A stretch of DNA of 64,000 bases from Lachnospiraceae bacterium. Its GTDB lineage: Bacteria > Bacillota > Clostridia > Lachnospirales > Lachnospiraceae. The notes beneath the pieces were generated by a model. The model was not told the origin of the DNA and did not search any database. It saw only the letters and a list, made by a program, of their open reading frames with translations. The stretch is from NCBI GenBank assembly GCA_017399445.1, contig JAFQCM010000056.1, positions 124,001-188,000 of the forward strand, written 5' to 3'. The position numbers were made by a program, and so were the translations under genes. Below are positions 34,997 to 40,734 of this stretch, in pieces (the first letter of the stretch is position 1; every line of letters starts with the position of its first letter).

Positions 34997-35896
34997 ATGA
35001 GTGAATTGTGGGATGTGTATACTATAGACAGAAAGACGACCGGAAAGACTTGTATTCGTGGTGAACAGAACACACTATCGGATGAAGAATTTCACCTTTG
35101 GGTTATGGTTTGGATAAAGAATCCGACGACCGGTAAATATCTGATATCACAGAGAACTGCTAACAAAGACACGGATCCGCTGAAATGGGAAACTGTTGCA
35201 GGGCATTCTATATTAGGTGATACAAGTCTTGATGCAGCACTGCGTGAAGTTTATGAGGAAGTTGGAATCGAACTGAAAGCTGAGAATGCAAAAATACTTG
35301 CAACTAAAATAGCTTTGACAATAGACGGACGGCGCCATAACTGGATATGTGATTCGTTCTATTTTGAAACAACTATGGAGCCTGATTTAGACAAAGCAAC
35401 TACCAATGAGGTCATACAAACAAAGTGGCTCACTTTTGATGAAATAAAAGAAATGTATGAACGCGGTGATTGCTGTCTTAATATGGGAGAACTTTATGGA
35501 TTTGAATTAAACCCAGTACCGCAGGACGAGTATCAGGATATTATTGGTCAGACTGTAAAAGGCAAAATTGACCGTCCTATGGGAAGTTACCATCCACGTC
35601 ACAAAGATCTTTATTATCCAGTCAACTATGGCTATGTTGATGGAATTACAGGAGGTGATGGAGAAGAACAGGATGTATATCTTTTGGGCGAGACTTCTGC
35701 AGTTATGGATTTTGTAGGAAAAGTAATTGCCGTCTATCATAGATATGATGATAAAGAAACGAAATGGATTGTTGTTCCTTGCGATGAAAAAGGCATTATA
35801 CGGAGTGATATTAAGACACCTAATAAAGATGAAATATATGCTCAGATTGCCTTTCAGGAACAGTTTTACAGCGGAGTTTTGGTGGGATTACAATAA
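34997..35896 (+). CDS. Nudix hydrolase fused to inorganic-pyrophosphatase-like domain
   Basis: 299 residues. Residues ~1-170 are a Nudix domain: the box begins at GHSILGD and ends REVYEEVGIEL, intact except that the first conserved Glu is Asp. Residues ~185-299 resemble small soluble pyrophosphatase-like proteins (KIDRPMGSYHPRHKDLYYP, NYGYVDGI, GEEQDVYLLG). Nudix enzymes cleave nucleoside diphosphate-X compounds. A pyrophosphatase partner would pull a phosphate-releasing reaction, though here the pairing on one chain is inference. AAGGAG lies 10 bases before the ATG. It starts 14 bases after rlmD. Confidence 0.82.
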   Translation: MSELWDVYTIDRKTTGKTCIRGEQNTLSDEEFHLWVMVWIKNPTTGKYLISQRTANKDTDPLKWETVAGHSILGDTSLDAALREVYEEVGIELKAENAKILATKIALTIDGRRHNWICDSFYFETTMEPDLDKATTNEVIQTKWLTFDEIKEMYERGDCCLNMGELYGFELNPVPQDEYQDIIGQTVKGKIDRPMGSYHPRHKDLYYPVNYGYVDGITGGDGEEQDVYLLGETSAVMDFVGKVIAVYHRYDDKETKWIVVPCDEKGIIRSDIKTPNKDEIYAQIAFQEQFYSGVLVGLQ

Positions 35897-35951: not shown

Positions 35952-35981
35952 TTGCAGTGTTCGTGTGTTTTTTGTTATAAT
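35952..35981 (+). promoter_or_regulatory. Promoter of leader-methyltransferase unit
   Basis: TTGCAG (35952-35957), an 18-base spacer and a perfect TATAAT (35976-35981) lie about 47 bases ahead of the 11-codon leader ORF. Confidence 0.6.
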
Positions 35982-36027
35982 AGCTTTCGTGGCATACTGA
36001 TAATCAGGAGTCACATAGGAGGTAATC

Positions 36028-36063
36028 ATGAGAATGCGAGATAACTACTCGGTGCAGTTTTGA
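36028..36063 (+). CDS. 11-residue leader peptide
   Basis: The ORF MRMRDNYSVQF has a near-ideal ribosome site (AGGAGG at 36017-36022, 5 bases from ATG), which is stronger than that of the methyltransferase downstream. Its codons 7-11 form one arm of a long hairpin (see the regulatory feature at 36048). This layout is typical of drug-inducible attenuation leaders (erm, cat, msr types), where ribosome stalling in the leader frees the next gene. Stalling itself is inferred. Confidence 0.6.
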   Translation: MRMRDNYSVQF

Positions 36064-36123
36064 TGCTGACAGCAGGTTGTACCGAGGTTAATAGATGTTA
36101 TTTGCTGTCACATACTGCACCGA
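36048..36123 (+). promoter_or_regulatory. Mutually exclusive leader hairpins (putative attenuator)
   Basis: Stem A pairs TCGGTGCAGT (36049-36058) with ACTGCACCGA (36114-36123), 10 perfect bp. Nested stem B pairs TGACAGCA (36067-36074) with TGCTGTCA (36103-36110). Competing stem C pairs CTCGGT (36048-36053) with ACCGAG (36081-36086). Arm 1 is within the leader ORF, so a ribosome on it would break A and C. No T-run follows, which favours translational rather than transcriptional control. Confidence 0.6.
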
Positions 36124-36165
36124 ACAAATAATGAAGAACAGACTTTTATTTGAAAAGGAGCAGAT

Positions 36166-36183
36166 ATGGTATTGTCAATATGA
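36166..36183 (+). other. Five-codon ORF coupled to the methyltransferase start
   Basis: ATG GTA TTG TCA ATA TGA sits 5 bases after the only good ribosome site of the region (AAAAGGAG, 36153-36160). Its TGA overlaps the methyltransferase ATG (36180) as ATGA. This makes it a likely entry point for translational coupling, or a trace of a start-codon change. Confidence 0.45.
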
Positions 36184-36953
36184 ATACAGATAGAATGAGT
36201 GAATTAAGAAAAGAGTGGGAAGCAGAGGAGAAGGTTGCACACATACATGGTTGGGACTTTTCTCATATTCATGATAGATATGAAGAGGAGGATGATCTCC
36301 CGTGGGACTACAAAAAGATAATTGAAGAGTTTCTTCTTCCTGATATGAAACTGTTGGATTTTGATACAGGTGGTGGCGAGTTTCTATTATCTTTGAAACA
36401 CCCATACAAGAACACTGCAGCTACTGAAGGATATGCCCCTAATGTTGAATTGTGTAAGGAGGTTCTGTTACCGCTTGGGATTGATTTCAGACCTTGCGAT
36501 GATGAGTCTAATATACCTTTTGCTGACAGCTCTTTTGACATAATGATAAACAGGCATGGAAGTTTTGATCCTGTGGAAGCACATAGACTTCTTAAGCCAG
36601 AAGGACTTTTTATCACACAGCAGGTAGGAAGCAAAAACGATAGAGATCTCGTTGAAATGGTTCTTCCTGATGTGCCTGCCCCTTTCCCAGAACTTGAATT
36701 ATCTATTCAGAGGAAGAAGTTTGAAGAAGCAGGCTTTGAGATAATCCGTGCTGAAGAAGTATTTAAGCCAATTAGGTTTTATGATGTAGGGGCATTTGTA
36801 TGGTTTGCGCACATCATTGAATGGGAGTTCCCGGGATTCTCCGTTGAAAAATGCTTTGATAAATTACTTGAAATGCAGGAAGTAAGTGACAAGAATGGTT
36901 TTGTAGAAGGTACTATTCACAGATACCTTATAGTGGCAAAGAAAAAAGGCTAA
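36180..36953 (+). CDS. Class I SAM-dependent methyltransferase
   Basis: 257 residues from ATG 36180. Motif I is the altered LLDFDTGGGEFLL, motif II ATEGYAPNVEL, and the post-I acidic region IPFADSSFDIMINRHGSFD; the remainder is a standard Rossmann fold with a C-terminal helical part. The substrate is unknown. The upstream leader peptide and attenuator suggest induction by a ribosome-acting compound, so a resistance or drug-modifying role is a fair hypothesis only. The good ribosome site AAAAGGAG (36153-36160) is 19 bases away and points to a 5-codon ORF (36166-36183) whose TGA overlaps this ATG, suggesting coupling. Confidence 0.8.
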   Translation: MNTDRMSELRKEWEAEEKVAHIHGWDFSHIHDRYEEEDDLPWDYKKIIEEFLLPDMKLLDFDTGGGEFLLSLKHPYKNTAATEGYAPNVELCKEVLLPLGIDFRPCDDESNIPFADSSFDIMINRHGSFDPVEAHRLLKPEGLFITQQVGSKNDRDLVEMVLPDVPAPFPELELSIQRKKFEEAGFEIIRAEEVFKPIRFYDVGAFVWFAHIIEWEFPGFSVEKCFDKLLEMQEVSDKNGFVEGTIHRYLIVAKKKG

Positions 36954-37041: not shown

Positions 37042-37854
37042 TTATTTTTTCTTCTTACCACGCCCATTCCCTTTGATGGGTTTGCAGAGAACGGAGTACC
37101 GCTGCAGTATATCGGTAAAGGTCTTAAACTCATAGGGATCCATCTTGGTAAAGTTTATTTTGAAGAGTTTGCTGTACATTATCATTTGAGCTTGCGTAGC
37201 ATTATCGGCAGTCTTTAGTTCTTCAAATGAGTCGAGGATATCATCCACAGGCGTAGTTGTATCACCGGTTTCTGCATCTTTGCTATGAGCATCTCTTAAA
37301 TCTTTTGCAATTTTTACGATGTCATTTCCGAGAAGATTGTTGAAGTAATTATCTTCAGAAATAGATGCTGTCTTTAAAGTTTTCATGTAGTGATCTTCGT
37401 CAGAAATACCTTTGCGCTGAAGACGAACTCTAGTCTGTTCAATCATTTTGTTGATGTTCCTAAATTGCATGCCTGCTAGATTATCAACATAGATTTCCAT
37501 GTCTGTGAGAAAATTCGTAAACTCAGGATGTTTTATTATTTCACAAATCAGGCGAGCATTCAGTTTGCCTTTTTTTAATATCTCAACAGTTTCATCATCT
37601 AACCCTAAGTTATCAACCGGGAATCTGTGTTGTTCACGATTTTCGGTAAGTCCTAATAAATAATCAGATGTTACACCATAAAAATTTGCAAGGGTGACAA
37701 TAGCCTTGTGAGTAATTTCTTTATAATTATCTGTTTCATAATTTCCCAGAGATGCTCTGGATATGCCGGTCTGCTCTGACAGTTCTTGCAGAGACAGACC
37801 TTTTTCTATTCTCAAATCTTTCAATTTTTCCTGAATCGATAATTTACATTTCAT
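37042..37854 (-). CDS. XRE-family transcriptional regulator
   Basis: 270 residues. The N-terminal Cro/CI HTH (about 8-62; LKDLRIEKGLSLQELSEQTG) is followed by a long helical C-terminal part with no domain I recognise, ending GNGRGKKKK. ATG 37854 fits the AAAGGGG site 9 bases upstream; a TTG at 37875 is the alternative. It lies at the edge of the mobile-element remnant and is probably its regulator. Confidence 0.85.
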   Translation of the reverse strand: MKCKLSIQEKLKDLRIEKGLSLQELSEQTGISRASLGNYETDNYKEITHKAIVTLANFYGVTSDYLLGLTENREQHRFPVDNLGLDDETVEILKKGKLNARLICEIIKHPEFTNFLTDMEIYVDNLAGMQFRNINKMIEQTRVRLQRKGISDEDHYMKTLKTASISEDNYFNNLLGNDIVKIAKDLRDAHSKDAETGDTTTPVDDILDSFEELKTADNATQAQMIMYSKLFKINFTKMDPYEFKTFTDILQRYSVLCKPIKGNGRGKKKK

Positions 37855-38068
37855 GAATCCAGTCCCCTTTAACAAAGTTTATATAAAATGGCACATCTAC
37901 ATTATAGCTGAGCGCACGTTTGTAGGATACGGCTAAATCTAAAAACATGGAATTTTATATTCTTTTAAAAATATTCCTACCTCTTGGATATACGGATTGG
38001 ACCGCTTATTTCTTGGATAATGTGTTCATGAACGATGATTCCTTGTCGGGAGAGGAGGTGAAAAGCAA

Positions 38069-38374
38069 ATGCTAAATCAAGGATATGTTCCATGTGACAA
38101 ACAAATTCATATCAAGTTATCAGAGGCAGAATTACAGATGATTCGGGATAGGATGGCGCAGATGGGATTCAGAAATCTGAGCGCTTATGTTCGCAAGATG
38201 GCAATTGATGGATATTACATTCATGTCGATTTTAAAGAACTTCTTGAAATCATCAGGCTCATGAGAATTGACAGCAACAATATCAATCAGATATTGCGAA
38301 ATACAGAAATGATAATGACCCAAGATTTGTTATTCAGAACTGGATGCGAAACAGAAATACAGTTGAGTTTTTAG
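38069..38374 (+). pseudogene. MobC-like relaxosome protein, truncated and chimeric
   Basis: 101 codons. Residues 1-75 match the bacterial mobilisation protein MobC (IHIKLSEAELQMIRDRMAQM, NLSAYVRKMAIDGY, IDSNNINQI). After NNINQI the typical continuation is lost and the frame runs into KilA-N sequence read out of frame. GGAGGTG lies 7 bases before the ATG, so a shortened protein may still be made. Confidence 0.72.
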
Positions 38375-39036
38375 CAGTTTGGGAAGAACTTCATAATCCG
38401 GATTTTAACCGTGTGCAATTAGAGGCGGTTAGAAGTGAGGCTGGATTAAACAGATTTGTTATGACACCTACTAAATGGATTGAACAGACAAATGCTATTG
38501 GAATAGTGTCGAAAGCTGGCAGGTACGGTGGAGGTACTTATGCACATAGCGATATTGCAATGGCATTTGCCACATGGATTTCTCCAGAATTCCAGTTGTA
38601 TATTATGAAAGACTACCGTAGGTTAAAGCAGGATGAAAATAGTCGGCTTTCATTGGATTGGAACTTGAACAGAGCTTTATCAAAGGTGAACTACCGTATT
38701 CATACAGATGCAGTGAAAGAAAATTTGATTCCACCAGAATTAACGCCAGAACAGATTGCCTATACATATGCCAGTGAAGCAGATCTTTTAAATGTTGCTT
38801 TATTTGGACAAACTGCAAAGCAATGGAAGAATAACAATCCAAGCAAAAAGGGTAATGTGCGTGACGATGCAAATTTAAATCAGTTATTGGTGTTGGCAAA
38901 TATGGAGAGTTATAATGCTATTTTAATTGAGCAGGGGAAATCTCAATCAGAAAGACTTATATTGCTTAGAAATTTGGCAATTAAGCAGATGGATACACTA
39001 TCCAGTATCAATTTATCAGCGGTTCGGCACTTCCTG
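38287..39036 (+). pseudogene. KilA-N domain protein, 5'-truncated
   Basis: Reading from about 38287 in the frame of the next ORF gives DIAKYRNDNDPRF, VIQNWMRNRNTVEFL and TYAHSDIAMAFATWISPEF, the core of a phage-type KilA-N DNA-binding protein. The usual first ~20 residues are missing and replaced by mobC. The first in-frame ATG is 38344, without a ribosome site. The frame continues without stop into the recombinase, giving an apparent fusion of 484 codons. Confidence 0.7.
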
Positions 39037-39051
39037 GAGGTGACATGTAAT

Positions 39052-40734
39052 TTGAAGAAAGAAAAAATTAAAGTGTATTTATACACTCGTGTCTCAACAG
39101 CTATGCAGATAGATGGTTATTCACTGGAAGCACAGAAAACCAAAATGAAAGCCTTCTGTGACTATAATGAATATGAGATTGTTGGCGAGTATGAAGACGC
39201 AGGAAAATCCGGTAAATCCATAGAAGGAAGAATTGCTTTTAATCAGATGATGGACGATATCAAATCAGGAAAAGATGCAGTATCTTATGTCCTTGTATTC
39301 AAGCTTTCTAGATTTGGCAGAAATGCAGCAGATGTACTTGCCACACTACAGGTGATGCAGGACTTTGGAGTTAATCTAATCTGCGTAGAGGATGGAATTG
39401 ACTCATCTAAGGATGCCGGTAAGCTCATGATATCTGTGCTGTCAGCAGTGGCGGAGATTGAGCGTGAGAACATTCGTGTTCAGACCATGGAAGGCAGGAT
39501 GCAGAAAGCCAGGGAAGGCAAATGGAATGGTGGCTTTGAACCGTATGGATATTCGCTTATTGATGGCAAACTGGAAGTCAATGAGGAAGAAGCAGTTGCC
39601 ATCAGAACGATATTTGATCAATATGTAAATACGGATTTGGGGGCTAATGGAATTGCTAAGTATTTAGAAAATCACGGAATCCATAAGATAGCCAGACAAA
39701 ATGGTACAAATTCATTATTTGATGCTGCTCTTATCAGAAGGATTATTCAGAATCCGGTTTATTGCGGTAAAATTTCTTATGGCAGGAGACGGACTTAAAA
39801 GGTTCATGGTACGAGGAATGAGTATAGGCAGGTAAAAAAGGATGATTATCTATTAGTAGATGGTTTGCACGAAGCTCTTGTATCAGAAGAAGTGTGGGAA
39901 CAGGTGCAGGTCAAAGTGGCTGCACAGGCAAAAAAGTATGAAAAAGTCAATCGTGATAAAGGAGAAAAGATTCATCTTTTATCAGGAATTTTGAAATGCC
40001 CTGTCTGTGGCACAGGCATGTATGGTAATAAGGCTATTAAGAAACGCAAGGATGGAAGCAATTATAAGGATTTTTATTACTATGGTTGCAAGCACCGCAA
40101 TATGACCAGAGGCCATAAGTGTGATTACAGAAGACAGGTGCATGAAGAGATGTTGGACGCTGCTGTTGCAGAGGTAATCAGCAAGTTGGTTAGTAATCCT
40201 AAGTTCTCAGATTTGATCCGTAGCAAGATAAATATGGAAGTAGATACCAGTACACTGGATCAGGAGATAGCAAATTATGAGAAGCAATTAAGACAGCTAT
40301 ATCATAACAAAGATTCCATTTTGTCTGATATTGATTCTCTTGACTACGAGGATAAGCATTATCAACGAAGAAAGACAGATTTGGATAATCGTTTGTACAA
40401 AACCTATGATAAAATAGAGGAAGCAGAGGAACTGCTTGTATCTGCAAAAGCCAAGAGACGTTCTTTGCTGGCAGATAAGATTACTGGAGATAATATCTAC
40501 AAGGCACTTATTTTCTTTGATAAGTTGTATGATAAAATGAACGAAGCAGAGAAACGAGAATTCCTGTCACAGTTAGTGGATAATGTACAGATTTATGAAG
40601 AACGGAAAGAAAATGGTCAGTGGCTAAAATCCATAGAATTCAAGTTGCCTATTATAGAAAAAGAGTTTACACTAAGTTTGGACAACAATGCGCAAACTGA
40701 GACGGTTGTCTTGATGTCTAGGAAAGATAAATAA
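39052..40734 (+). pseudogene. Large serine recombinase interrupted by an in-frame TAA
   Basis: Serine recombinase for element integration/excision. Likely start TTG 39052, 8 bases after GGAGGTGA. Resolvase domain: VYLYTRVSTAMQIDGYSLEAQ (catalytic Ser), FKLSRFGRNAADV, SVLSAVAEIERENI. Recombinase domain: KWNGGFEPYGY, IIQNPVYCGKISYGRR. A zinc ribbon (KCPVCGTGMYGN ... YGCKH) and coiled coil follow. A single TAA at 39796-39798 splits it; the same frame resumes at once (KVHGTRNEYRQVKKDDY) and runs to 40734. One substitution, such as GAA to TAA, explains this. The truncated N-terminal part could not bind att DNA normally. Confidence 0.88.

Follow-up and report, generated by a model that had tools for sequence, protein, structure and literature searches.

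A putative leader-peptide translation attenuator with a conserved CGA arginine codon ahead of methyltransferase, exporter and radical-SAM genes in Bacillota

The short region preceding a methyltransferase gene in a Lachnospiraceae genome (in a window of 64,000 nucleotides, by which we mean the whole stretch of DNA analysed) probably acts as a leader-peptide translation attenuator, in which a ribosome would halt at an arginine CGA codon, likely because of a drug, and would thereby control genes for resistance or tolerance. RNA geometry and codon conservation, which are two independent lines of evidence, point to one and the same codon. Inducible leaders flag genes that are switched on against ribosome inhibitors; one leader that precedes a methyltransferase gene, exporter genes of two classes and radical-SAM genes would mark several uncharacterised genes as candidate resistance genes, located in gut anaerobes and in plasmids of food bacteria, and the leader together with its codon offers a direct handle for finding the compound responded to.

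Architecture of the leader locus

All elements of the locus are located on the forward strand. The promoter (35952-35981) is composed of a weak -35 hexamer (TTGCAG, 35952-35957), a spacer of 18 bases and an extended -10 element (TGT-TATAAT, with the TGT starting at 35973 and the box at 35976-35981). It is followed by a Shine-Dalgarno (SD) site (AGGAGG, 36017-36022) and by a leader ORF at 36028-36063 (ATG AGA ATG CGA GAT AAC TAC TCG GTG CAG TTT TGA) which encodes the peptide MRMRDNYSVQF. The perfect TATAAT box, the 11-codon ORF and the AGGAGG site are present as a first-pass annotation, made from the sequence alone, had stated, the box being of the extended type. Perfect TATAAT boxes were detected upstream of 36 of 80 leaders (11% in shuffled sequence), most aligned leaders have an SD-like site 5' of the ORF, and the leader region folds more stably than its shuffled counterparts (z = -2.95).

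Two stems compete for one arm inside the leader ORF. Stem A is formed by a 5' arm within the ORF (36041-36058) and a non-coding 3' arm (36076-36091), whereas stem C consists of an outer helix between CGGTGCAGT, i.e., the Ser-Val-Gln codons at 36050-36058 that are also part of stem A, and ACTGCACCG (36114-36122), and of an inner helix between TGACAGCA (36067-36074) and TGCTGTCA (36103-36110). Covariation of these arms was scored on 53 leaders, the alignments over the whole element comprising 35-53 leaders. For stem C, 10 of 19 pairs have changed on both sides (62 cells), with a score of 0.278 compared with 0.163 for shuffled alignments (0/500), and for stem A, 6 of 16 pairs have done so (24 cells; 0.234 versus 0.192, 0/500), although these counts are not phylogenetically independent and are inflated by common ancestry, the independent cases being L007, L055, L058, L088 and L135. 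When the arms of stem C were slid, only 20-51% of positions were paired, compared with 95% in the proper register. Covariation of stem A was weak in the first 35 sequences and became clear only after leaders of ABC and radical-SAM genes had been added.

The common arm has left its own trace, in that the Ser and Val codons vary at their third positions jointly with both partners; in 13 sequences the Ser codon ends in A instead of G, and its partners in A and in C have both changed from C to U alongside, as expected from one shared arm. Most arm changes are found at third codon positions (e.g., TCG GTG CAG to TCA GTA CAG) and S-V-Q is still encoded, implying that both the peptide and the RNA are under constraint. 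In the radical-SAM leaders L157 and L159, a Gln codon has changed from CAG to CGG together with its partner (CTG to CCG), which adds one more pair of compensatory changes within the ORF. Stems A and C with one common arm, which the first-pass annotation had described, are therefore real and both covary, and mutually exclusive stems with such support are what characterises translation attenuators operated by ribosome arrest. No covariance model in Rfam matched the leader region, either at the gathering threshold or at E-values up to 5.

A fourth element, absent from the earlier description, is the complementarity between the 3' arm of stem C and the spacer/SD region of the downstream gene (pairing D), which in the window involves the methyltransferase ribosome-binding site (RBS) GGAGCAGATATGG at 36157-36169 (CUGCaCC:GGaGCAG), in many methyltransferase loci AACUGC:GCAGUU, and in the ABC group AACUGUACU:AGUACAGUU. 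The duplex of each arm with its own RBS has a mean energy of -10.6 kcal/mol, compared with -8.4 +/- 0.28 when arms and RBSs are permuted among loci (0/5000), and is hence locus-specific; within methyltransferase loci only, the values are -10.1 and -9.3 +/- 0.17, respectively (0/5000). In addition, a GCAG motif is present in the RBS spacer of 32 of 34 loci with the leader but in only 9 of 38 leaderless loci. Modelled in this way, the RBS of the downstream gene is sequestered by one alternative pairing (D). Taken as a whole, the attenuator architecture proposed at first pass is strongly supported, the leader ORF and the complementary arms having been kept in homologues.

The second mini-ORF that had been included in that architecture (MVLSI*, 36166-36183) does overlap the methyltransferase start by ATGA, but it is not conserved and lies outside the device. 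In close relatives (such as L015, L017 and L022), GGAGCAGAT stands immediately 5' of ATGAATACAG, whereas the window contains 14 extra bases, ATGGTATTGTCAAT, at 36166-36179, which create both MVLSI* and the ATGA overlap. Judged by this comparison, the mini-ORF is a local change rather than a conserved part of the device, and it was perhaps rescued by translational coupling.

A conserved CGA codon and the predicted switch

Across leaders the peptide retains the core R-x-N-Y-S-V-Q-[FL]. At homologues of the methyltransferase, the leader reads MRTRIIYSVQFNAGSRLYRG at 73% enzyme identity, MRKRINYSVQS at 69%, M(M)KRINYSVRF at 65% and VKRIKRIKFSVQLR at 50%. The strings YSVQF, YSVQL and NYSVQ did not occur in any of the papers on leaders that were searched. 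The fourth codon before Ser (36037-36039 in the window) is CGA in 81 of 88 leaders, irrespective of the downstream gene, and every Arg at this place is encoded by CGA (81/81) and never by another Arg codon, although CGA is otherwise an uncommon choice for Arg (5.5% in the methyltransferase genes, 10.8% in the ORFs of the window) and the other Arg residues of the same leaders are mostly encoded by AGA. Leaders without CGA at the predicted A-site place are L119, L129, L130, L132, L134 and L138. Another locus, L070 (2823-2931), has an intact RNA switch in which CGA has become TGA, and offers a naturally occurring mutant with which the part played by translation of the leader may be tested.

The same codon is reached from the RNA side. 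By masking, in each of 52 leaders, the footprint of a ribosome stalled at every codon in turn and computing the accessibility of the downstream RBS, we found that accessibility is maximal when the P-site is at the fifth codon before Ser in 36 of 52 loci, and in 32 of 52 when the footprint edge is varied by one base to either side; the stall site obtained in this way moves by one codon if the footprint edge is set at 14 or 18 instead of 15-17. The peak disappeared when the intervening RNA was shuffled. A ribosome at the peak position allows stem C to form and D to open, whereas one codon further C is lost and D closes. Thus, the RBS is predicted to be open at one ribosome position only, with the fourth codon before Ser, CGA, in the A-site, suggesting an attenuator keyed to arrest at Arg-CGA.

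In the mechanism that we propose, arm 1 within the leader ORF (36041-36058) would have two alternative partners, arm 2 in stem A and arm 3 in stem C, and arm 3 could in turn pair instead with arm 4, the methyltransferase RBS (pairing D). When the leader is completed by elongating and terminating ribosomes, or when stem A has formed, arm 3 would be free and the RBS masked (OFF). A ribosome halted with CGA-Arg in its A-site, most likely because of a ribosome-targeting compound, would cover the part of arm 1 that belongs to stem A only and leave the stem C part exposed, so that stem C could form, arm 3 would be sequestered and the RBS would open (ON). The genes placed under this control (methyltransferase, ABC or MFS exporter, radical-SAM enzyme) would be resistance or tolerance genes. 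However, equilibrium folding of the window RNA without ribosomes already prefers stem C, implying that the OFF state must depend on translation of the leader or on kinetic folding of A, and this preference is the main weakness of the switch model. Each arm of this topology (two alternative partners for arm 1, and an RBS masked by arm 3) lends itself to testing on its own, and the strict use of one rare codon for Arg at the presumed A-site position reduces the question of whether the codon or the amino acid is sensed to one mutation.

Possible triggers and relation to known attenuators

The macrolide/phenicol assignment made at first pass has lost ground, because the R/K-X-R/K (+X+) motif of this leader (RMR) is missing in many relatives and the constant features are Arg-CGA and S-V-Q. 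A macrolide or ketolide attenuator of the Erm/TlrB sort, in which a tunnel-bound drug would halt the ribosome at R2-M3-R4, Met then occupying the P-site and Arg the A-site, is conceivable but rather doubtful: the +X+ motif stands exactly at the predicted place in this and many other leaders (MRMR, MRTR, MRKR, MKKR), RlmA is among the profile and fold matches of the methyltransferase, and TlrB/YxjB of B. subtilis is a precedent with Arg in the A-site (PMC6851288), but many leaders lack the first basic residue (MKIIR, MKYIR, MQFVR, MIKR; see also the leaders MKIIRDNYSVQL and MQFVRGNYSVQF), the second one alone being nearly constant, and +X+ gives no reason for the exclusive use of CGA. This strict codon use (81/81 in spite of its rarity, next to AGA elsewhere in the same peptides) suggests that the incoming tRNA matters. 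The halt may, with about as much doubt, be ascribed to Arg-tRNA arriving at CGA, caused either by a drug of the accommodation corridor that is selective for the A-site tRNA or by loss or shortage of tRNA-Arg(ICG), e.g., through an anticodon nuclease or arginine starvation. Orthosomycins are a tentative candidate inducer, and an abstract from 2022 reportedly describes a regulatory ORF ahead of an orthosomycin-resistance gene. Context-specific arrest has been reported for evernimicin, as far as the citing source relates it (Mangano 2022, as cited in PMC13410324). Against a role of Arg-tRNA, the downstream genes include none of arginine metabolism, a slow codon read by I:A wobble could merely sharpen any drug-induced halt, and a few leaders do without CGA, as listed above. 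On a broader and equally speculative view, the leaders would constitute an undescribed, horizontally spread regulon of Bacillota, which senses halts at Arg-CGA and activates different defence genes, among them methyltransferases and radical-SAM enzymes that are not known to confer resistance, its trigger being the decoding by tRNA-Arg(ICG), disturbed by a selective drug or by tRNA damage, and not a nascent-peptide motif.

Two explanations that dispense with translation attenuation fare worse. Stem C is long and G+C-rich and is followed by five T in L007, as an intrinsic terminator would be, yet transcription attenuation is improbable considering that the window and most other loci (L007 excepted) have no U-tract after stem C, the 3' arm of which complements the RBS instead. 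Still less credible is a role of the short ORF as a RiPP-like peptide gene, with the radical-SAM or ABC proteins encoded behind it modifying or exporting the peptide: the radical-SAM protein distantly resembles the epimerase YydG and an ABC exporter follows some leaders, but the usual downstream gene is a lone methyltransferase, the peptide has only 11-13 amino acids, silent codon changes follow the RNA pairing, and two of the enzymes were never observed behind one leader in flanks of 1.5 kb.

The translation attenuator favoured here resembles the erm-type devices (ermC, ermB) in having a short ORF with its own SD site, mutually exclusive stems and a methyltransferase RBS that is masked until the leader ribosome halts. 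In the classical erm scheme, pairings 1:2 and 3:4 alternate with 2:3 and arm 2 switches, whereas here the switching arm is arm 1, which is located in the ORF and has 2 and 3 as alternative partners, and the RBS is masked by arm 3; the present peptide is also unrelated, and the present enzyme is not an Erm. Closer in some respects is tlrB/yxjB of B. subtilis, where a tylosin-dependent halt at RYR, with Arg in the A-site, unmasks the RBS of a 23S rRNA methyltransferase gene, and which shares with the switch proposed here an Arg in the A-site, SD sequestration and a downstream methyltransferase, its own leader having 9 codons and an Arg-rich end (PMC6851288). It differs in possessing an intrinsic terminator, a single SD-sequestering hairpin and the leader MIIQFIRYR, and its RlmA(II) enzyme methylates G748 (PMC6851288). 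Drug-responsive leader peptides also precede the efflux genes mef/msr(D) and bmrCD, like the ABC and MFS loci here, but mef/mel and bmrCD are described as transcription attenuators, whereas the present device has no visible terminator (PMC4335068, PMC10314930, PMC4191407). The toiL-topAI uORF of E. coli is likewise a sensor of translation stress that frees the RBS of the gene behind it; there, however, a halt anywhere suffices and several drug classes induce, whereas the permissive stretch predicted here is about one codon wide (PMC12121999).

Distribution of the leader and the genes behind it

Covariance searches detected the leader module at about 90 loci. A first model was run on genomes of the family, 30 of 397 of which contained a leader, and a second one on the wider ranks (26/392 for the order, 8/391 for the class and 6/398 for the phylum). 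The genes behind the leaders found with the first model encode the methyltransferase, an ABC exporter and a radical-SAM/SPASM protein distantly resembling YydG; the second model added MFS transporters (L131 and L134), a second radical-SAM protein (L130) and more members of the first three kinds. The presence of the leader ahead of several unrelated genes indicates that it is a regulatory module capable of transfer, and not the private leader of one gene. Accordingly, the idea of an orphan arrangement does not hold, the device being found ahead of at least four other kinds of genes, and the leader peptide, for which the first-pass annotation had suggested searching, does recur, both in front of methyltransferase homologues and in front of unrelated genes. 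On the sequence evidence at hand, the module is spread over gut and soil Bacillota.

The leader and both stems persist from 98% down to about 37% methyltransferase identity, and a mobilizable plasmid of Lactiplantibacillus plantarum carries a 37%-identical enzyme with the leader MQIKYDNCSVQL and both stems. Scanning 84,980 species genomes yielded 80 methyltransferase loci, about half of which have the leader, and of the 81 methyltransferase loci that were retrieved, roughly one in two is leaderless. The enzyme itself is sporadic (12 of 98 relatives, some matches being weak) and occurs on mobilizable plasmids. In L063 (2990-3100), the start of the leader (MVNRMNYSV) is fused in frame to the methyltransferase and the switch is wholly lost, resembling constitutive attenuator deletions, and L032 and L066 retain leader remnants only; in sequence, these three leaderless loci look like natural deletions. 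One complete genome (G274) contains two leader copies (C1:2673473-2673578 and 3230351-3230458), the first of which is followed by the methyltransferase gene. An origin of the leader as a mobile repeat was rejected, given a single copy in a 2.97-Mb genome, and blastn searches with the leader DNA against plasmids and phages returned no real match.

The methyltransferase of the window (36180-36953, 257 aa) belongs to an uncharacterised family of class I SAM-dependent enzymes, as assigned from a match to Pfam Methyltransf_11, an AlphaFold model (pLDDT 92) and Foldseek. It is neither an Erm nor a Cfr, as had been read from its motifs: neither Erm/RrnaAD nor the profile of Cfr radical-SAM methyltransferases matched in Pfam and NCBIfam. 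A profile match to RlmA(I) (1p91) has an E-value of 1.7e-5 over 70 positions, and RlmA(I) ranks third in Foldseek with a TM score of about 0.6, comparable to those of many small-molecule methyltransferases. Considering that the class I fold matches include RlmA(I) at low TM scores, both rRNA and a small molecule are candidate substrates. A phage or defence origin was rejected, the enzyme being absent from phage records, without a PHROGs family, present in one IMG/VR contig and matched only marginally by PADLOC. The surroundings of distant methyltransferases (in S. clavuligerus, P. aeruginosa and Glutamicibacter plasmids) did not point clearly to any drug, and searches on EmtA and on Glutamicibacter OTC-16 gave nothing usable. 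A 31%-identical methyltransferase (L167, 1465-2193) lies beside IS6100 on a plasmid of Glutamicibacter nicotianae from sludge near a pharmaceutical factory, and is possibly a mobile resistance gene.

Directly upstream of the leader promoter, the window encodes a NUDIX hydrolase (34997-35896, forward strand) with a weak C-terminal match resembling inorganic pyrophosphatase, below the Pfam cut-off. Further downstream, a KilA-N domain is in frame with a serine recombinase (resolvase and recombinase domains; 38344-39798, forward strand), the frame of which stops at 39798, and another ORF of the same nature lies behind it at 39865-40734 on the same strand, so the serine recombinase gene may be split or broken. 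The KilA-N and recombinase ORFs possibly lie within a mobile element that begins just after the methyltransferase gene and that would include a Cro/C1 regulator on the reverse strand (37042-37875).
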